Source: Aquabacterium sp. NJ1
GTDB lineage: Bacteria; Pseudomonadota; Gammaproteobacteria; Burkholderiales; Burkholderiaceae_C
NCBI RefSeq assembly: GCF_000768065.1
Contig: NZ_JRKM01000001.1
Span: 806,001-870,000, forward strand
Length of the DNA stretch: 64,000 bases
Direction of reading: 5' to 3'
Program-made: the position numbers and the translations under genes
Notes under the pieces: generated by a model
Database searches by the model: none
Seen by the model: the letters and a program-made list of their open reading frames with translations, nothing else
What the model was told of the DNA's origin: nothing
Shown: one piece after another, positions 19,617 to 26,938 of the stretch
Numbering within the stretch: position 1 is the stretch's first letter
How the letters are laid out: each line of letters starts with the position of its first letter

Positions 19617-19853
19617 TCAGCAGCGGCCAGAGCGTCTGCTGCGTGGGTTCAGCTTGTCCAGCTCGGCCAGCTGCTGCTTGAGCAGGATCACCAAGGTGCG
19701 CGCATCGTCAACGGGCAGCGACAGGCAGCTGACCACAGCGCCTTCGTCGCGAGCAGGGCGAGGCAGGACCAGCACATCAACGCCCAGCTCGATCAGGCCT
19801 TTGTCATGGCGGGCCGATTTCAGGCGCTGGATTTCGATGTTGTAGGTTTTCAT
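19617..19853 (-). CDS. hypothetical 78-residue protein
   Basis: I do not recognise this small protein. It has a strand-rich N-terminus (MKTYNIEIQRLKSARHDKGLIELGVDVLVLPRP), a hydrophobic DDARTLVILLKQQLAELDKL helix and an Arg-rich end; there is no signal peptide or Cys pair. Codon third positions are GC-rich in this frame and it fills the space between two plus-strand genes, which argues for a real gene. The start ATG at 19853 has only a weak upstream AAGAA. It overlaps nothing if the downstream exported protein starts at 19977. Confidence 0.5.
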   Translation of the reverse strand: MKTYNIEIQRLKSARHDKGLIELGVDVLVLPRPARDEGAVVSCLSLPVDDARTLVILLKQQLAELDKLNPRSRRSGRC

Positions 19854-19976
19854 GGGGGTTCTTCTTCGGATAGGTCAAGGCGACATTGTCAGGGCAATCG
19901 GCAACGCTGCACAGCGCCTGGAACCGCTATCCTCCCAATCCAGAAGCCCTGTCCACCAAGGGCTCAAGGGAGACAA

Positions 19977-22901
19977 ATGACCAAGCACGCACGCGCCTGG
20001 CTGTTCAGATGCGCACAGGCTGCGCTGGCCATCGCGATCATCGCCGCCACAGCGTTCGCCGACCTGCCTGAGGCCAGCGCCCAGACGAGCAGCGACCGGA
20101 ACCTGCCCTTATCGCCACCAGAATTCGATGCCGTGATCAACGAGATCCAGCGGATGGTGGTCACCAAGGACAACGATGTTCACCGCTTTGTGGTGCACGA
20201 GGCCACGCCCGAGCGCATTCAACGGCTCTACAACATGCCGGCGCTGCTCAAGCAACGCACGGTCATCCGGGAAAACGGGCTGATCTTCGCCGGCCAGGGC
20301 ACGCTGCTGAGCTTTGACAAGCCCTCTGACGTGATCAACAAGGTCGCCAGCTGGTTTCCCGAAGAAGTGGCTGCGGCTCGCCAGGCCCCTGAGCTGCGTT
20401 TTTTCACACACCTGCACCTGTACGGCCCCTACGCCTCCTGGCAGGATGAACCAGCAGCCTTCATGGCAATGTGGAACTGCATGCCCCAGATCGCCTGGCT
20501 CACACCAGATGCAGACCCGTTCCGTCGCCGGCTGAAGATCAGCTCATTGACCATGTGGGGCGTTGCCGCTACCAGTTCAGACCCGCAAGAAGGTGACTTT
20601 GGCTTTTGTGTTCGCGAGCGCAGTGGGCTCCGCCCCGCCGAGACACCAGCAGCGCGCCAGGCCAATCAGCAGGAAGTTCGCAGCATTGGCGAGCGAGTAA
20701 CCGCTACCTTGCCCGGCAAGTTCTCGCGCTTCCTGGCCAGACAGGGCTGCAGCGGCACGGGGCCCGATGACTGCGTCTTGGTGTTGCACCTTTGGGCCAG
20801 CCTGGCTCCGGTTGATCCGGATCTGGCTTCGGCCCTGGCACGCCTGGAACCACTGGTGCAGCTTGATGCCCCCTTGCCTCCGCTTCAAAAGCCGGCGGCC
20901 CAATACGGAGCGGGTGGTCAGGAGGGCGAGCCCCGCTTCGACGCAGTGTTGAGGCAAGGCGCCTTTTTGCGGGCCAAGCTGGCATCCGTTTTGAAGCAGC
21001 CTGCGGCCTGGCCAACCGATGCGTTGGCCAGCACCCTGCACCAGATGACGACGCTCGAGCGGAAGATGGCTCAAGCCATCGACCACCGCTGGTACTACTA
21101 CGAGCTGGGTTACTACAACGCCCTCGTCAACCCATGGGGCCCGCTGGGGCACTACCTAGCCGAATCGCCCACCGTCCGCGATGCCGTGATGGCCGAGATC
21201 AATGCCATCGGCGAGGATGACCAGGACTGCAACCTTCACCGCTCATGGCTGGATAGCTACCCCGACCTGCTCAACCGCTTCGTGTTGCAGCACCTCCAGG
21301 AGGCCCCGTCCAACCGATGCGCCAAGCCGGATTGGTCGCGCATCAAGGCCGGTGCCACGCCGCAGGCTGTCGAATTGCGCCAGCAATACCTGAATCTGCT
21401 GGCGCGCACCCCGTCCGACGCGACGCGCGACGAGATCCTCAGCCAGTTCACCAGCAATGGCGACGACTGCTTCAACGCGCAAGGCAAGCCCGCATTGAAG
21501 TGGCAGGTCGACCTGTGCCGAGCCTGGATCCATGAGCCTCAGCTCACCCCGCTGGCCCTCCGGCACAGCAAGCTCACGCTGGATAAGCGCCACCAGTTTG
21601 ACAAGGTGATCCGTCAAGCGCCCACGGCGGGCGAGAACGGTGCCATCAAGCCCGATCAACGCGCATGGCTGGGCACCCTGACCCAGGGCATGCATGCCGA
21701 TGCGGTGGCCAGCATGCGGACCTATGCCGAAGCCCTGTGGCAACAACACCGCTTGGTGCGACAGGCCACCCATTGGCGCCACCCCGGGCACAGCCGCTCA
21801 CTCATCGAACTTGATCTGGCAGACAACGAAGGCACCCGGATCGACCTGATCCTGACGCCACACGGGCTGCAGGAGTTGACCGTGCCTTCGCGCCTGTACT
21901 GGCCGCAAGACCGGCCGGACATCGTGCGGGTGTCTGATCTGGATGCCGACGGCCATCTTGAGCTCTGGTGGTCCAAGCCATTTGATGAATGCCACGGTGA
22001 CAGCAGCGATCTGGCGCGCAATCTGGACTGTTCGGCCACCAGTGCCATGAGCGCAACCATGGGGGAAGCGAACAGAAATGGCGTCTCCTACTTTGTTGAC
22101 GATCGCCCTACCCACCCCACAGTCCCCGCTGGCGAGAACTGGCGCTCGCGCCCCAACGGGATCACGACCAAGCGCCCCGATCAAATCCCCGAAGAGCGCC
22201 CGACCTGCAACCGCATCTTGCTGGGTTCGTTCCTGTCAGACCAACTGGAAGTTTCCTTCTCCGAGCCACAGGAAGAATCATCCGGCTACCCCCGCCTGAT
22301 CGACCTGACCTGCAAGCCCCACCCCTTGCACCCGAACCTGGCACTGGTGGCCCTGTTCCATGAGCTCCGTGAAGAACCCAACGCCGATGGCAACACAGCA
22401 AAAGGCTTCGTCATGGCGGTGGTCGATATCCAGCGCCGTCGGCTGATCAGGTTGTACCGCGACAAAATCCTGGAAGATGCTGGCACTCGCATCAGCGAGT
22501 TCAGCCTGCACCTGGACACGGCGCCCTACAACATCGCGCCGGGTGTGCGCGCCTTCGGTGTGCGCATGAACATTGGGTACAGCCCTCGCTACGCAGAAGG
22601 CGGCGAGAGCGACTACCTCACACTGTTCATCGAGCACGGCAAGACCTTGCGGCCCATCATCCAGAACATGCCCATGAGTTCATGGCGAATGGTGGGTGAC
22701 ACGGCCCATTGCTTCGACGATGCCGAAACGGGTTGCGCCATCGAAAACAAGGCCGTGCGCCTCGCCCTGGCATCGACCTCCACCCATGGTTGGCGTGATC
22801 TGGAAGTGATCACCACAACCAGCATCGGTGACACGAACACCCAGAAAGCGCGCGTCCAGGTGACAGGCAAGCTGCGTGCGCAAGCCTGCGTTTACCACTG
22901 A
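19977..22901 (+). CDS. large exported protein of unknown function (974 residues)
   Basis: AGGGAG four bases before ATG 19977 and a signal peptide of about 36 residues (basic start, then ALAIAIIAATAFA, ending near ASAQ) fix this start and predict export. I recognise no enzyme family. The mature protein has scattered Cys residues and many Trp and Tyr. One Asp-rich loop near residues 650-660 (DLDADGHLELWW) resembles a single FG-GAP/VCBS-type calcium loop. There are no membrane segments after the signal, no clear internal repeats and no C-terminal anchor, so it is likely periplasmic or secreted. It is flanked by a small unknown gene and an ArsR cluster and appears to be a single-gene unit. Confidence 0.7.
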   Translation: MTKHARAWLFRCAQAALAIAIIAATAFADLPEASAQTSSDRNLPLSPPEFDAVINEIQRMVVTKDNDVHRFVVHEATPERIQRLYNMPALLKQRTVIRENGLIFAGQGTLLSFDKPSDVINKVASWFPEEVAAARQAPELRFFTHLHLYGPYASWQDEPAAFMAMWNCMPQIAWLTPDADPFRRRLKISSLTMWGVAATSSDPQEGDFGFCVRERSGLRPAETPAARQANQQEVRSIGERVTATLPGKFSRFLARQGCSGTGPDDCVLVLHLWASLAPVDPDLASALARLEPLVQLDAPLPPLQKPAAQYGAGGQEGEPRFDAVLRQGAFLRAKLASVLKQPAAWPTDALASTLHQMTTLERKMAQAIDHRWYYYELGYYNALVNPWGPLGHYLAESPTVRDAVMAEINAIGEDDQDCNLHRSWLDSYPDLLNRFVLQHLQEAPSNRCAKPDWSRIKAGATPQAVELRQQYLNLLARTPSDATRDEILSQFTSNGDDCFNAQGKPALKWQVDLCRAWIHEPQLTPLALRHSKLTLDKRHQFDKVIRQAPTAGENGAIKPDQRAWLGTLTQGMHADAVASMRTYAEALWQQHRLVRQATHWRHPGHSRSLIELDLADNEGTRIDLILTPHGLQELTVPSRLYWPQDRPDIVRVSDLDADGHLELWWSKPFDECHGDSSDLARNLDCSATSAMSATMGEANRNGVSYFVDDRPTHPTVPAGENWRSRPNGITTKRPDQIPEERPTCNRILLGSFLSDQLEVSFSEPQEESSGYPRLIDLTCKPHPLHPNLALVALFHELREEPNADGNTAKGFVMAVVDIQRRRLIRLYRDKILEDAGTRISEFSLHLDTAPYNIAPGVRAFGVRMNIGYSPRYAEGGESDYLTLFIEHGKTLRPIIQNMPMSSWRMVGDTAHCFDDAETGCAIENKAVRLALASTSTHGWRDLEVITTTSIGDTNTQKARVQVTGKLRAQACVYH

Positions 22902-22928: not shown

Positions 22929-22958
22929 TTGACATGCAGGCAAATACTTGCATATTAT
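22929..22958 (+). promoter_or_regulatory. sigma-70 promoter with inverted-repeat operator for the ArsR-type gene
   Basis: TTGACA (22929-22934), an 18-base spacer and TATTAT (22953-22958) make a near-consensus promoter in a locally AT-rich stretch. An inverted repeat ATGCA (22934-22938) with TGCAT (22949-22953), with inner arms GCAA (22940-22943) and TTGC (22948-22951), fills the spacer. A repressor bound there would block RNA polymerase, which fits autoregulation by the ArsR-type protein encoded next. Transcription should begin near 22965. Confidence 0.75.
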
Positions 22959-22990
22959 TGCCCCAACGCACCCAGCCCCATCAACCCATT

Positions 22991-23320
22991 TTGGACATCG
23001 ACAAAGTTTTCAAGGCGCTGGCAGACCCGACACGCCGCCAACTGCTGGACCTGCTGCACGCCGACAACGGCCAGACGCTCACCGCCTTGTGCGAACACAT
23101 GGCCATGACGCGCCAGGCCGTGACCCAGCACCTGCAACTGCTGGAGCAGGCGCAGCTCGTTGCGGTTGTCTGGCAGGGGCGGGAAAAGCTGCACTACCTC
23201 AACCCGGTGCCCCTGCACGAGATCTACGAGCGCTGGATCGGCAAGTTCGAACGCAGCCGCCTGAGCGCGCTGCATGCCCTCAAACAGAAACTCGAAGGTG
23301 ATGAAGATGAGCAAACCTAG
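22991..23320 (+). CDS. ArsR-type winged-helix repressor, SRPBCC-associated
   Basis: I place the start at TTG 22991, giving 109 residues (LDIDKVFKALADPTRRQLLDLL), because the first in-frame ATG at 22934 lies inside the promoter's -35 box and because this family normally begins just before that helix. The recognition helix is MTRQAVTQHLQLLEQAQLV, followed by the WQGREKLHYLNP wing. No metal-binding Cys motif (CVC-type) is present, so it is not an arsenic sensor. Relatives paired with SRPBCC/AHSA1 proteins respond to unknown, probably organic, signals. Its stop overlaps the SRPBCC gene by 14 bases, so the two are co-translated. Confidence 0.83.
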   Translation: MDIDKVFKALADPTRRQLLDLLHADNGQTLTALCEHMAMTRQAVTQHLQLLEQAQLVAVVWQGREKLHYLNPVPLHEIYERWIGKFERSRLSALHALKQKLEGDEDEQT

Positions 23321-23786
23321 CTTCGTGTACGTGACCTACATCGCCACCACGCCCGAGAAGGTGTGGCGGGCCTTGGTCGACACCGACGTGACGCGCCAGT
23401 ACTGGGCGGACCCGATCGGCAACTGCGCCCCTCATGTCAACGTGTCGGACTGGAAAGCCGGCTCGCCGTGGGCGCATCAACGCGCCGACGAGACAGGCGC
23501 CATCGACATGGTCGGCAAGGTATTGGAAAGCCGGCCGCCCCAACGCCTGGTGATCACCTGGGCCAGGCCCGCCGAGGTGGATGACGAACGCAAGCATTCG
23601 CGCGTCACGTTCGACATTGCCGCGCATGGCAACCAGCTCGTCTGCCTGACCGTCACCCATGAGGATCTGGAACACGACCCGCAGATGCTGGCCGGCATTT
23701 CGGGTGGCTGGCCCAAGGTGCTGTCCAACCTCAAGTCCCTGCTGGAGACAGGGCATGCGTTACCACGGGTTGCATTGGCAGCCTGA
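23307..23786 (+). CDS. SRPBCC/AHSA1 (START-like) domain protein
   Basis: This is a 159-residue protein from ATG 23307 (an ATG two codons earlier is possible), overlapping the ArsR-type gene. It opens with VYVTYIATTPEKVWRALVD, the first strand and helix of the AHSA1 fold. YWADP, GKVLESRPPQRLVITWA and a C-terminal GGWPKVLSNLKSLLETG helix follow. The fold encloses a hydrophobic cavity and binds small lipophilic ligands; bacterial members have no single known function. ArsR-SRPBCC pairs are common and the SRPBCC protein is usually the main product of the repressed operon. Confidence 0.87.
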   Translation: MSKPSFVYVTYIATTPEKVWRALVDTDVTRQYWADPIGNCAPHVNVSDWKAGSPWAHQRADETGAIDMVGKVLESRPPQRLVITWARPAEVDDERKHSRVTFDIAAHGNQLVCLTVTHEDLEHDPQMLAGISGGWPKVLSNLKSLLETGHALPRVALAA

Positions 23787-23850
23787 GCCCGGGCGCCCCT
23801 TTGTGTAGCATGCCGACATCGCCCAAACCGCCCTGCCGGCTGCACACCCC

Positions 23851-24216
23851 ATGTCCTACATGCTGCTGATCATCGAACCCGTGGGCCAACGCGCCATGCG
23901 CACCGAGGCCGAAGGCCGTGAGGCTTATGCCGTGATGCAGCGCTTCGCCGAAGGGCTGGCCACGCAAGGCAAGCTCAAGGCCGTGGAGTCGCTGGCCTCC
24001 CAGGCCCAGGCCGTGCGCATCAGCCATGCCGGTGGCAAACCACAAACGCTGGACGGCCCCTTTGCGGAGGCCAAGGAAATGATCGGCGGCTTCTTCCTGC
24101 TGCAGAACGTCACCCGCGAGGAAGCCATCGCGGCGGCGCATGCATGCCCTGCGGCCCAGTGGGCCACCGTGGAGGTACGTGCCCTCGCCCCCTGCTTTGA
24201 CGAGAGCCACGCATGA
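23851..24216 (+). CDS. YciI/DGPF-domain protein, first copy
   Basis: This 121-residue ferredoxin-like-fold protein carries the DGPF signature in TLDGPFAEAKEMIGGFFLL, preceded by a small-residue-rich first half. DGPF (YciI-like) proteins are the typical partners of ECF42 sigma factors. Their biochemical role is unknown; the YciI fold elsewhere supports small-molecule chemistry with a His-Asp pair. It starts 65 bases after the SRPBCC gene and ends 127 bases before the next gene, in a gap that contains an ECF-like promoter, so it probably belongs to the ArsR-controlled unit. Confidence 0.87.
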   Translation: MSYMLLIIEPVGQRAMRTEAEGREAYAVMQRFAEGLATQGKLKAVESLASQAQAVRISHAGGKPQTLDGPFAEAKEMIGGFFLLQNVTREEAIAAAHACPAAQWATVEVRALAPCFDESHA

Positions 24217-24241
24217 TCAGGGTTTCCACCCAGATCAAAGC

Positions 24242-24268
24242 TGTCGATTTTCGCCAGCCTGCTTCGTC
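24242..24268 (+). promoter_or_regulatory. candidate ECF42 sigma promoter
   Basis: TGTCGA (24242-24247), a 17-base spacer and CGTC (24265-24268) match the ECF42 -35/-10 consensus (TGTCGA and CGA/TC) as I recall it from work in Streptomyces. It lies 75 bases before a VOC gene that begins the run ending in the ECF42 gene itself, so it would give positive autoregulation. A short inverted repeat, GTCGT (24266-24270) with ACGAC (24278-24282), covers the predicted start site. No other copy of the motif occurs in the remaining gaps of the cluster. Confidence 0.6.
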
Positions 24269-24343
24269 GTACTCAAGACGACGCGATTGAAGCACCGGGC
24301 ACCAGGCACCGGCCAGGACGTCGTTCAAGTGGAGAGACTCACC

Positions 24344-24769
24344 ATGACGACCCCCAGCGTTCCCATGTGCCCCGTGGTGCACTTCGAGATGCCCTACCGC
24401 GACCGTGATCGCGCGGCCCGTTTCTACGCCGAAGCCTTCGGCTGGCAATGCCAGAAGCTGGGCCCCGAGATGGGCGACTACCTGCTGGTCACCACCGCGC
24501 CACCGGGCACACGCCCCGGCCTGCCGCCGCAGGCCCCCGTGGGCGCCATCAACGGCGGCCTGTTCCCATTCAAGCCGGACGTCCCCATGCAGTACCCGGC
24601 GGTCGTCATGGGCGTGGACGACATCCGCGCGGCCATGAGCCGCGTCAAGGCAGCAGGCGGCGAAGTGATGGGCGAACCCATGACCATTCCCGGCGTGGGC
24701 GACTACGTGTCTTTCGTGGACACCGAGGGCAACCGCAACAGCATCATCCAACCCCTGATGCCCGCTTGA
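24344..24769 (+). CDS. VOC family protein (glyoxalase/bleomycin-resistance fold), first copy
   Basis: ATG 24344 follows GGAGAG and gives 141 residues. The sequence VVHFEMPYRDRDRAARFYAEAFGWQ is the first beta-alpha-beta-beta module of the vicinal oxygen chelate fold. The second module has VMGVDDIRAAMSRVKAAGGEVMGEPMTIPGVGDYVSFVDTEGN. A His near the start (VHFEMP) and a Glu near the end (TEGN) are in the usual metal-ligand places. Substrate and activity are unknown. It is the first gene behind the candidate ECF42 promoter. Confidence 0.87.
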   Translation: MTTPSVPMCPVVHFEMPYRDRDRAARFYAEAFGWQCQKLGPEMGDYLLVTTAPPGTRPGLPPQAPVGAINGGLFPFKPDVPMQYPAVVMGVDDIRAAMSRVKAAGGEVMGEPMTIPGVGDYVSFVDTEGNRNSIIQPLMPA

Positions 24770-24781
24770 AGGGAGCACCTC

Positions 24782-25207
24782 ATGCGATTCATGATCATCG
24801 TGAAGTCCTGCCCCGAGTTTGAAGCCGAGGTGCAACCCGATCCGGACCCCGAGGTGATGGCCGCCATGGCCAAGTACCACGAGGAACTGGCCAAGGCCGG
24901 CGTGCTACTGGACGGCACCGGCCTCAAGCCGAGCCGCACCGGCTGGCGCATCCACTATGGCAAGGAAGGTCGCCGCGTGGTGGACGGCCCGTTTGCCGAA
25001 GCCAAAGAACTGATCGCGGGCTACACGCTCATTCAGGTTCGCTCGCGCGAAGAGGCCCTGGAATGGAGCCGGCGCTTTCCCAACCCCGTACGCGAAGGCG
25101 CCGAGGCCATCGTCGAAGTGCGCGAGTTGTTCGAGCTGGAAGACTTCACCCCCAGCGAGGCACTCGACAAGTTCAAGGCCATGGACGCCATGAACAAGCA
25201 CGCCTGA
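24782..25207 (+). CDS. YciI/DGPF-domain protein, second copy
   Basis: This 141-residue protein starts 12 bases after the VOC gene, with GGGAG upstream. It has MRFMIIVKSCPEFE, EELAKAGVLLDGTGLKPS and VVDGPFAEAKELIAGYTLIQVRSREEALEW, the full DGPF-family pattern in the longer form typical of ECF42 neighbourhoods. It is clearly related to the copy at 23851 but more divergent at both ends. A C-terminal ELFELEDFTPSEAL segment extends the fold. The role is unknown; association with the sigma factor is the strongest clue. Confidence 0.9.
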   Translation: MRFMIIVKSCPEFEAEVQPDPDPEVMAAMAKYHEELAKAGVLLDGTGLKPSRTGWRIHYGKEGRRVVDGPFAEAKELIAGYTLIQVRSREEALEWSRRFPNPVREGAEAIVEVRELFELEDFTPSEALDKFKAMDAMNKHA

Positions 25208-25237
25208 ACCACACAGCCCCCACACAGAAAGCCCATC

Positions 25238-25648
25238 ATGCTCAGACAGATTTTCGTCAACCTGCCCATCAAGGACATGGCCCGCTCGCAAGCCTTCTTC
25301 AAGGCGCTCGGCCTGAAGTTCAACCCGCGCTTCACCAATGAACAAGGCGCCAGCCTGGAAATCGCCGAAAACATTTACGCCATGCTGCTGGTCGAGCCCT
25401 TCTTCCAGGGCTTCACCAAACTGCCCTTGTGCGACGCCAGGAAGGCCACCGAGGTGCTGATCGCCTTGTCATGCGACAGCCGCGAGGAGGTCGAGGACAT
25501 GGTGCGCAAGGCCGTGGCCGCTGGGGGCACCACGCCCAACGAGCCGAAGGACTACGGCTTCATGTACCAGCACGGCTTTGCCGATCTGGACGGGCACCAG
25601 TGGGAGGTGTTCTACATGAACATGGACGCCGCCCCGGCGCAGATGTAA
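25238..25648 (+). CDS. VOC family protein, second copy
   Basis: This 136-residue protein begins LRQIFVNLPIKDMARSQAFFKALGLKFNPRFTNEQ, the glyoxalase-like fold of the YaeR/PhnB-related group commonly annotated as glyoxalase/bleomycin-resistance protein. FADLDGHQWEVFYMNMDA ends the second module. The first metal ligand position is Asn or Phe rather than His (FVNLP), so metal binding may be altered. It lies 30 bases after the second DGPF gene and 21 bases before the sigma-factor gene, in one transcription unit. Confidence 0.87.
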   Translation: MLRQIFVNLPIKDMARSQAFFKALGLKFNPRFTNEQGASLEIAENIYAMLLVEPFFQGFTKLPLCDARKATEVLIALSCDSREEVEDMVRKAVAAGGTTPNEPKDYGFMYQHGFADLDGHQWEVFYMNMDAAPAQM

Positions 25649-25669
25649 GGCTGGGTGTAGAACGCAGGC

Positions 25670-26938
25670 ATGCACTCCCAGGTCCACGACACCATCGCCG
25701 CGGTGTGGCGCATTGAATCGGCACGCATCGTGGCCACGGTGGCGCGGCGCGTGCACGACCTGGGCGTGGCCGAAGAGCTGGCGCAGGACGCCCTGGTCGC
25801 GGCGCTGGAGCGCTGGCCGCTGGATGGCCTGCCCGACAACCCGGCCGCGTGGCTGATGACCACGGCCCGCAACCGCGCGCTCGACCACCTTCGCCACCGG
25901 CAGATGGCCGAGGCGAAGCACGAGAACCTGGCCCGAGACCTCGATGCACTGGAGGCCCTGACCGTGCCCGACTTCGTGGATGCGCTGGACGAGGCCCGGC
26001 AGGACGACATCGGCGACGACCTGCTGCGCCTGATCTTCACGGCCTGCCACCCGATCTTGTCCACCGAGGCGCGAACGGCCTTGACGCTCAAGCTGCTGGG
26101 CGGCCTGAGCACGCACGAGATCGCCCGCGCCTACCTCGTGCCCGAGCCCACGGTGGCCCAGCGCATCGTGCGGGCCAAGCGCAGCCTGAGCGAAGCCAGC
26201 GTGCCGTTCGAAGTCCCTCGCGGGCCTGCCCTGCCCGAGCGCCTGCCCGCCGTGCTGGAGGTGGTCTACCTGATCTTTAACGAGGGCTACACCGCCACCA
26301 GCGGCGCCGACTGGATGCGCCCGGCCCTGTGCGACGAAGCCTTGCGCCTGGGCCGCATGCTGGCCGAACTGGCGCCTGATCTGGCCGAGGTGCACGGCCT
26401 GGTCGCGCTGATGGAGGTCCAGGCCTCGCGCCTGGCCGCCCGCGTGGACGCACAAGGCCAGGCCATCTTGCTGGCAGACCAGAACCGCGCGCGCTGGGAC
26501 CACCTGCTGATCCGCCGGGGCCTGGCGGCGCTGGCACGTGCGCAAGCCTTGCAGCAAGCCATTGGCAGCTATCGCCTGCAGGCGGAGATTGCGGCCTGCC
26601 ATGCCCGCGCCCCCAGCGCCCCCGCCACCGACTGGGCGCGCATTGCGGCGCTGTATGCCCAACTCATGCAGGTGGCGCCCTCGCCGGTCGTGGAGCTCAA
26701 TCGCGCGGTGGCCGTCAGCATGGCGCAAGGCCCAGCTGCAGGCTTGACCGTGATCGAGCCCCTGCTGGCAGACAAGGCACTGCGGCGCTACCACTGGCTG
26801 CCCGCCGTGCAAGGCGACCTGCTGCACAAGCTGGGCCGTGTGGACGAGGCACGTGCTGCCTTTTCGCGTGCCGCTGAACTGGCGAGCAACGAGCGCGAGC
26901 GGGCTGTGCTGCTGGCGCGGGCGCAGTCGGCGTTGTGA
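25670..26938 (+). CDS. ECF42-type RNA polymerase sigma factor with C-terminal extension
   Basis: At 422 residues this is about twice the length of an ordinary ECF sigma factor. Region 2 spans about residues 10-85 (VAEELAQDALVAALERWPLDGLPDNPAAWLMTTARNRALDHLRHR). Region 4 spans about 110-175 (LGGLSTHEIARAYLVPEPTVAQRIVRAKR). The remaining 240 residues start with VLEVVYLIFNEGYTATSG and are helical with TPR-like repeats near the end (GRVDEARAAFSRAAELA). This architecture next to DGPF genes defines the ECF42 group, where the extension replaces a separate anti-sigma factor; none is encoded here. It ends a VOC-YciI-VOC-sigma operon and probably drives it. Confidence 0.92.
   Translation: MHSQVHDTIAAVWRIESARIVATVARRVHDLGVAEELAQDALVAALERWPLDGLPDNPAAWLMTTARNRALDHLRHRQMAEAKHENLARDLDALEALTVPDFVDALDEARQDDIGDDLLRLIFTACHPILSTEARTALTLKLLGGLSTHEIARAYLVPEPTVAQRIVRAKRSLSEASVPFEVPRGPALPERLPAVLEVVYLIFNEGYTATSGADWMRPALCDEALRLGRMLAELAPDLAEVHGLVALMEVQASRLAARVDAQGQAILLADQNRARWDHLLIRRGLAALARAQALQQAIGSYRLQAEIAACHARAPSAPATDWARIAALYAQLMQVAPSPVVELNRAVAVSMAQGPAAGLTVIEPLLADKALRRYHWLPAVQGDLLHKLGRVDEARAAFSRAAELASNERERAVLLARAQSAL

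Follow-up and report, generated by a model that had tools for sequence, protein, structure and literature searches.

A cysteine-pair YciI paralog as a candidate partner of the ECF42 sigma factor in Aquabacterium sp. NJ1 and other Burkholderiales

Several proposals have been made for the control of ECF42, a group of extracytoplasmic function (ECF) sigma factors. A YCII protein has been suggested to take part in the regulation, and a fusion of YciI with ECF42 is mentioned for Caulobacter; in the same source the partner of the tetratricopeptide repeat (TPR) domain is called unidentified, and a partner for most of the C-terminal extension is described as still to be identified (PMC8999054). According to a suggestion reported elsewhere, activity is suppressed by a ligand, perhaps a protein, at the TPR domain (PMC9023288). 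In Sinorhizobium meliloti, glyoxalase-like and hydrophobic-ligand-type genes that lie behind TGTCG...CGTC motifs were raised when the ECF42 factor RpoE10 was overexpressed, and the YCII-related gene that precedes rpoE10 showed no rise (PMC6180224). Here we investigate an ECF42 locus of Aquabacterium sp. NJ1, at positions 22929-26938 of a stretch of 64,000 nucleotides (contig NZ_JRKM01000001.1, 806,001 to 870,000; the window), and in particular the first of its two YciI genes. VOC-like and hydrophobic-ligand-type targets of ECF42 are, given the S. meliloti results, not new, which tempers the novelty that a first-pass annotation of this DNA had seen in the joining of ECF42 to VOC and SRPBCC genes.

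The locus consists of seven genes, all on the plus strand: ArsR, SRPBCC (AHSA1), YciI1, VOC1, YciI2, VOC2 and ECF42 (Table 1). Pfam matches to the seven proteins were taken at E up to 0.001, and no anti-sigma family is among them. The order, strand and families of the genes, and the lack of a classical anti-sigma factor, are as first annotated; the starts of ArsR and SRPBCC have been slightly corrected. The longest open reading frame (ORF) of ArsR starts at ATG 22934, within the promoter at 22929-22958, and TTG 22991, which is also present in the sister genome, is therefore the likely start. The last gene has the features of an ECF42 factor: ECF regions 2 and 4, a long C-terminal extension with TPR-like repeats, a neighbouring YCII-related gene, no classical anti-sigma gene, and a TGTCGA...CGTC promoter before the sigma operon, here downstream of the first YciI gene. 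The two promoters of the first-pass annotation were both recovered. The repressor-type promoter before the first genes is of the sigma70 type, TTGACA-18-TATTAT, and the ECF-type promoter in the gap before the last four genes, TGTCGA-N17-CGTC, is backed by comparison between genomes. A division into ArsR-SRPBCC-YciI and VOC-YciI-VOC-ECF42 fits these promoter positions and stands as a description of two differently controlled units. They are not evolutionary units; by its ancestry YciI1 is part of the ECF42 locus. It is YciI1, formerly placed in the ArsR unit, that is the gene of interest.

The explanation that we favour is an ECF42 locus beside an independent ArsR-SRPBCC module, in which YciI1 (hereafter YciI-A) would be a basally expressed, thiol- or metal-responsive partner of ECF42. 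We give this whole reading a probability of about 0.47. The ECF42 locus and its regulon, as described below, can be held with high confidence. It is moderately probable that YciI-A is a dedicated partner of ECF42, and cysteine-based sensing by YciI-A is plausible at a little under even odds.

The first evidence is the position of the ECF42-type site. The comparison covered loci of the genus, loci of the family and 80 named ECF42 loci. Of the last, 17 from Burkholderiales and 61 from other taxa were used for YciI (excluded were L005 and L003, which shares its contig with L104). Gene strings came from custom hidden Markov models and a crude gene caller, and the family loci, being kin of the window genome, were assigned to Burkholderiales. 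Where a Burkholderiales locus has two YciI genes and also shows a recognisable site, that site always comes after the first of the two genes: 12/12 in the genus, 33/33 in the family and 8/8 among the other named loci. Four more such loci in the family and three more among the other named Burkholderiales have no site. In other taxa the site of two-YciI loci stands before the first YciI gene in 7/7, and 7 more are without a site. The single-YciI loci of the other named Burkholderiales have the site behind the gene in all four cases; in other taxa it is in front in 14 and behind in none.

The genes that precede the site are also related by descent. There are 230 YciI proteins in the loci, of which 224 entered a first tree; the six omitted pieces, shorter than 80 amino acids, were counted as outside the clade (non-A). 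One clade, A, holds 57 of the 60 first genes of two-YciI Burkholderiales loci, the other three being from Duganella. Its support by the Shimodaira-Hasegawa-like approximate likelihood ratio test (SH-aLRT) is 99 for 79 rows and 95 for a core of 74 rows, from which the outliers L166, L205, L078, L172 and L180 are removed. In a more careful tree of 101 rows, excluding L147 and L156, 41 core members form one side of a branch with support 98/97.9. Burkholderiales genes of clade A have the site behind them in 60 cases, in front in 3 and nowhere in 13, and for the non-A genes (n=80) the corresponding counts are 1 behind, 53 in front and 26 nowhere. In other taxa the non-A genes have the site in front in 21, behind in 0 and nowhere in 50, and the clade A genes behind in 1 and nowhere in 2. 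All three clade A genes with a site in front are outliers (L172, L180 and, by subtraction, L205). Within the core the site is behind the gene in 61 members and in front in none.

Clade A is also marked by its residues. Two cysteines, C99 and C115, are both present in 74/74 core members versus 0/151 non-A YciI proteins. A histidine column of clade B (H33 of YciI2) has histidine in 0/74 of the core and in 65/151 non-A proteins; the title of PDB entry 1mwq names a putative active-site histidine, to which this column may correspond. The YCII fold and the DGPF motif are present in YciI-A. Its structure model has a predicted local distance difference test (pLDDT) score of 93.7, with C99 after a helix and C115 after the last strand. 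In the sequence before clade A genes, a -10-like element ranks higher than in mononucleotide shuffles (mean rank 0.75, n=76, versus 0.38, n=80, for non-A genes), which fits a separate weak housekeeping promoter for YciI-A. The open-access literature that was searched yielded neither the cysteine-pair clade nor its place outside the ECF42 regulon.

The third line of evidence is co-occurrence. Among 399 genomes of the family, ECF42 is present in 165 and YciI-A, at a threshold of E up to 1e-18, in 122. YciI-A is found in 121/165 ECF42-positive genomes versus 1/234 ECF42-negative genomes, and in at least 106 of its 124 places it is no more than 6 kb from an ECF42 place on the list.

From the gene content, promoter-like sites, clade, cysteines and co-occurrence, all of them read from sequence, we infer promoter activity, binding, sensing and the direction of the effect as follows. 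Before stress, YciI-A would be present at a basal level, transcribed from a weak promoter of its own and through read-through, alongside a little sigma factor that likewise stems from read-through. YciI-A, kept outside the self-amplified ECF42 transcript, would be a soluble cysteine-pair partner (redox, electrophile or metal) that sets the activity of ECF42, probably by contact with the TPR-like extension. A change at its thiols (oxidation, electrophile or metal), or in its ligand state, would alter its hold on ECF42, which would then be freed or activated. Active ECF42 would fire its own operon and remote genes, producing more of itself together with small ligand-binding and enzyme-like products. 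We propose that, because YciI-A is not amplified and would stay constant, the sigma factor would outrun it, and the switch would sharpen and reinforce itself. The furthest-reaching form of the proposal is offered tentatively: the Burkholderiales ECF42 partner may be a YciI paralog turned sensor, which has lost the histidine, gained an invariant cysteine pair and come to lie outside the regulon, acting as a soluble thiol- or metal-responsive anti-sigma factor or co-activator on the TPR-like extension.

Is YciI-A then a partner of the sigma factor? Or, is it a plain enzyme or ligand binder of the same detoxifying pathway, present at a basal level before induction, whose cysteines serve structure, catalysis or metal binding and which does not touch the sigma factor? 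The latter is a serious rival, which we consider a substantial possibility although well short of an even chance. YciI-A shares its fold with a solved YciI-type protein, PA1349 of Pseudomonas aeruginosa (PDB 1s7i). They are 30% identical, and against the YciI-A model 1s7i gives a TM-score of 0.85 by query length. The sequence alignment of the two stops at residue 112, and PA1349 has an isoleucine aligned with C99. The residues of the DGPF motif are kept in both YciI clades, and the other predicted ECF42 targets resemble enzymes or ligand binders. On the other hand, most other YciI genes of these loci fall within the predicted regulon and YciI-A does not; it is also rare where ECF42 is absent, and it is without the clade B histidine.

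Further points weigh against YciI-A as the partner. In the family, single-YciI loci have the site in front in 10 and behind in 4, and 13/74 core members have no exact site nearby. YciI-B, the clade of YciI2, is nearly as strict in its co-occurrence (136/165 versus 8/234 genomes), so that both are ECF42-linked and YciI-A is slightly more strictly so. YciI-A is missing, at E 1e-18, from 44/165 ECF42-positive genomes of the family; ECF42 can therefore work without it, and YciI-A would be a lineage-specific layer, not a universal part of ECF42 systems. In the model C99 and C115 may be far apart within one monomer. All of these counts ignore relatedness, though the family loci are one per genus. 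Finally, it is only from position and co-occurrence that YciI-A is proposed to bind ECF42 and block its activity in the manner of an anti-sigma factor.

The ArsR-SRPBCC pair looks like a separate, self-repressing module beside the ECF42 locus. ArsR has the features of an ArsR/SmtB repressor, a winged helix and a conserved inverted repeat, the putative operator, inside its own promoter. In ArsR/SmtB metal sensors the recognition region carries a metal site of cysteines with the motif CxC. The ArsR of the window does not have this site, as there is one cysteine only when it is read from TTG 22991. The family contains 22 other loci with SRPBCC homologs at least 40% identical, of which 15 were examined (L207-L221). 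The operator lies inside a TTGACA promoter in 8 of these 15 and in the sister locus L109; the remaining loci have no usable upstream sequence. ArsR was called next to the homologous SRPBCC in 14/15, and these loci differ from the window in having no ECF42 gene in the examined stretches, some of which are short contigs. An ECF call in L211 turned out to be a small generic ECF factor (30.7 bits, 172 amino acids) and not ECF42.

Could ArsR-SRPBCC-YciI and VOC-YciI-VOC-ECF42 form one dedicated two-input circuit, as had been supposed? The genes are on the same strand and the gap before YciI1 is 64 nt, so read-through from the ArsR promoter into YciI1 is possible. The exact operator pattern occurs in 3 places in the genome versus 0 for the reversed pattern, and it is found neither before YciI1 nor at the ECF42 promoter (degenerate sites could escape this exact pattern); direct action of ArsR on the ECF42 operon was rejected on this ground, with the same limit. 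A close SRPBCC homolog is present in 2/42 congeners, and ECF42 in 15/42. By blastn, the sister genome (G019) has ArsR-SRPBCC first, next a 3-kb gene, and after it YciI1-VOC1-YciI2-VOC2-ECF42. In the window this gene, of the PA3715 family, is upstream of ArsR, so that it and ArsR-SRPBCC have swapped places. ArsR-SRPBCC-YciI as one conserved unit was rejected because of this swap. None of the 15 ortholog loci has ECF42 in the examined stretch, and no ArsR-SRPBCC pair was called in 65 ECF42 loci of the family. These results speak against the dedicated joint circuit, which we regard as improbable; the adjacency of ArsR and ECF42 is probably accidental. The PA3715-family gene itself is a 1031-amino acid ORF at 19806-22901 of the window, and in the sister locus L109 (9919-12850) it is read in two frames (298 and 711 amino acids).

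The search for ArsR-SRPBCC near ECF42 that the first-pass annotation had called for was not entirely negative. Empty in the family, it gave ArsR adjoining AHSA1 within 8 kb of ECF42 in 5/80 named loci (L012, L021, L024, L025 and L072), which counts against the independence of the two modules. The density of AHSA1 is 102 in about 127 Mb across 20 of the genomes with named loci, the five with ArsR-AHSA1 included; by chance, therefore, the 1,268 kb of named loci should contain about one AHSA1 gene. The arrangements in L072 and L021 also favour a joint circuit. In L021 (9363-10173) the pair is directly downstream of ECF42 on the same strand, and in L072 (13260-16517) it is on the same strand just before a second YciI-ECF42 couple. 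In L024 (3517-4800) the pair is upstream of ECF42 on the same strand, and in L025 it is in reversed order, pointing toward ECF42. Thus an ArsR-AHSA1 theme near ECF42 recurs weakly in other taxa, and a direct link may merit testing in the taxa of L021, L024 and L072. A weak ArsR call in L142 (about 20 bits) turned out to be MarR, and therefore a pair was counted only where an ArsR call stood beside an SRPBCC gene; L068, L144, L145 and L178 still have ArsR calls of 40-87 bits that lack an SRPBCC neighbour. A literature search on ArsR with AHSA1 found nothing specific.

The ECF42 promoter was compared between genomes. In the genome of the window the exact pattern TGTCGA-N16-17-TCGTC has 17 matches versus 15 for a reversed control. 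The three N16 matches lie ahead of VOC1 and of two remote genes, a YciI gene (L235, behind G000:C1:4371240) and, on the minus strand, an AHSA1/SRPBCC gene (L238, behind G000:C1:4863466), and none of the 14 N17 matches precedes a YciI, VOC or SRPBCC gene. Ten ECF42-positive congeners, this genome included, have 34 N16 matches versus 9 for the control. The count of neighbours uses 29 of the 34 (four matches and L264 were left out): 17 precede YciI, SRPBCC or VOC genes, 9 of them in ECF42-type operons, of which L255 shows no ECF42 within view, and 8 elsewhere. Another six precede DUF1428-like, DHFR/RibD-like or YceI-like ORFs, named by eye, and the last six have no assignable downstream gene. In ten ECF42-negative congeners there are 6 N16 matches versus 6 for the control, and 0/6 precede YciI, SRPBCC or VOC genes. 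The comparison supports, from sequence, a predicted role of ECF42 in driving its own operon VOC1-YciI2-VOC2-ECF42 from the promoter at 24242, and ECF42 very probably also drives two remote genes, one YciI and one SRPBCC. That the site is a chance match within a single ordinary housekeeping operon, to which the single strand, the short gaps and the occurrence of at least one such site in 31/100 shuffles of the window (an ECF-type site by itself is not rare) would lend themselves, is very unlikely, since the position of the site is conserved across the family and N16 matches exceed the control only in the ECF42-positive congeners.

The DUF1428-like gene, again named by eye, is behind an ECF42-type site near position 1501 in three loci of ECF42-positive congeners (L261, L267 and L272) and in L278, from a genome without ECF42; the ORF in L267 is only 41 amino acids as read. 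YceI-like and DHFR/RibD-like ORFs, also by eye, are behind such sites near position 1501 in L246, L248 and L270 of ECF42-positive congeners, suggesting a wider regulon.

As to the sigma factor and its surroundings, the helical model of ECF42 has a pLDDT of 81.8, and its best Foldseek matches are TPR proteins, which are weak (E 1.1e-3, none below 1e-3), with sigma factors lower down. C126-H127 and C310-H311 are invariant across 40 aligned ECF42 proteins from many phyla, and therefore ECF42 itself carries conserved cysteine-histidine pairs. The order YciI1-VOC1-YciI2-VOC2-ECF42 is kept in the sister and in another genus (L151), and YciI-YciI-SRPBCC-VOC2-ECF42 is the order in many relatives. No YciI-ECF42 fusions were found in the loci examined when they were looked for.

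Table 1. Features of the ECF42 locus and the adjoining ArsR-SRPBCC module, in positions of the window
Feature	Position	Strand	Basis
Sigma70-type promoter of ArsR-SRPBCC, TTGACA-18-TATTAT	22929..22958	+	11/12 consensus positions; same layout before ArsR-SRPBCC orthologs of other genera
Putative ArsR operator, TGCAGG-N6-CTTGCA, filling the promoter spacer (function inferred)	22935..22952 (G000:C1:828935-828952)	.	Like inverted repeat in sister L109 and in L208, L210, L212, L213, L214, L216, L217, L219
ArsR-family repressor, probable TTG start	22991..23320	+	HTH_20 3.7e-12; NF033788; start from promoter overlap and sister sequence
SRPBCC (AHSA1), probable start overlapping the ArsR stop	23307..23786	+	AHSA1 8.8e-20; start common to sister genome
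Tentative weak housekeeping-like promoter before YciI1, CTGAGC-17-TAGCAT	23783..23811	+	Enrichment of a -10-like element upstream of clade A YciI genes; TAGCAT is the best -10 in the sister too
YciI1 (YciI-A), ECF42-linked YciI paralog	23851..24216	+	YCII 4.7e-13; C99 codon 24145-24147; C115 codon 24193-24195; clade, cysteines, co-occurrence
Predicted ECF42 promoter, TGTCGA-N17-CGTC (= TGTCGA-N16-TCGTC)	24242..24268	+	Comparison between genomes; own-genome and congener scans
VOC1, glyoxalase fold	24344..24769	+	Glyoxalase 3.8e-9
YciI2 (YciI-B), downstream of the ECF42 promoter	24782..25207	+	YCII 1.7e-17; clade B in tree
VOC2, frequent ECF42 neighbour in the family	25238..25648	+	Pfam VOC; family loci
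ECF42 sigma factor with DUF6596/TPR-like C-terminal extension	25670..26938	+	DUF6596 1.7e-37; Sigma70_r2 3.9e-11; Sigma70_r4_2 5e-8; fold

A YciI paralog that acts as a sensor would, if true, represent a new class of sigma factor control. The comparison singles out a single small protein, a pair of its residues and a promoter arrangement. The predicted regulon, which is compact and in congeners may also take in YceI-, DUF1428- and DHFR-like genes (by eye), could reveal the compound that is handled.

How does this locus compare with the known ECF42 systems? The ECF42 of Streptomyces venezuelae and ECF-10 of Pseudomonas putida have, as here, a TPR-type extension, a YCII-related neighbour and a proposed regulation by a protein partner; the excerpt of the review makes no mention, for these systems, of a cysteine-pair YciI or of a YciI outside the autoregulated transcript (PMC8999054). 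In S. meliloti RpoE10 is accompanied by SMc01151 (YCII-related), SMc01149, SMc01148 and SMb20475. The likeness lies in the TGTCG...CGTC motifs, in the YCII-related gene upstream and in the induced genes, which have glyoxalase-like or hydrophobic-ligand domains, the latter read as SRPBCC-like in our analysis; the difference is that the YCII-related gene there has a predicted motif overlapping its start site (PMC6180224). In the window, the site is behind the first of two YciI genes, that gene belongs to the cysteine-pair clade, and the operon contains two VOC genes. The idea of a YciI-type partner is already present in PMC8999054, and what appears to be new in the Burkholderiales is the cysteine-pair clade and its place outside the predicted regulon.

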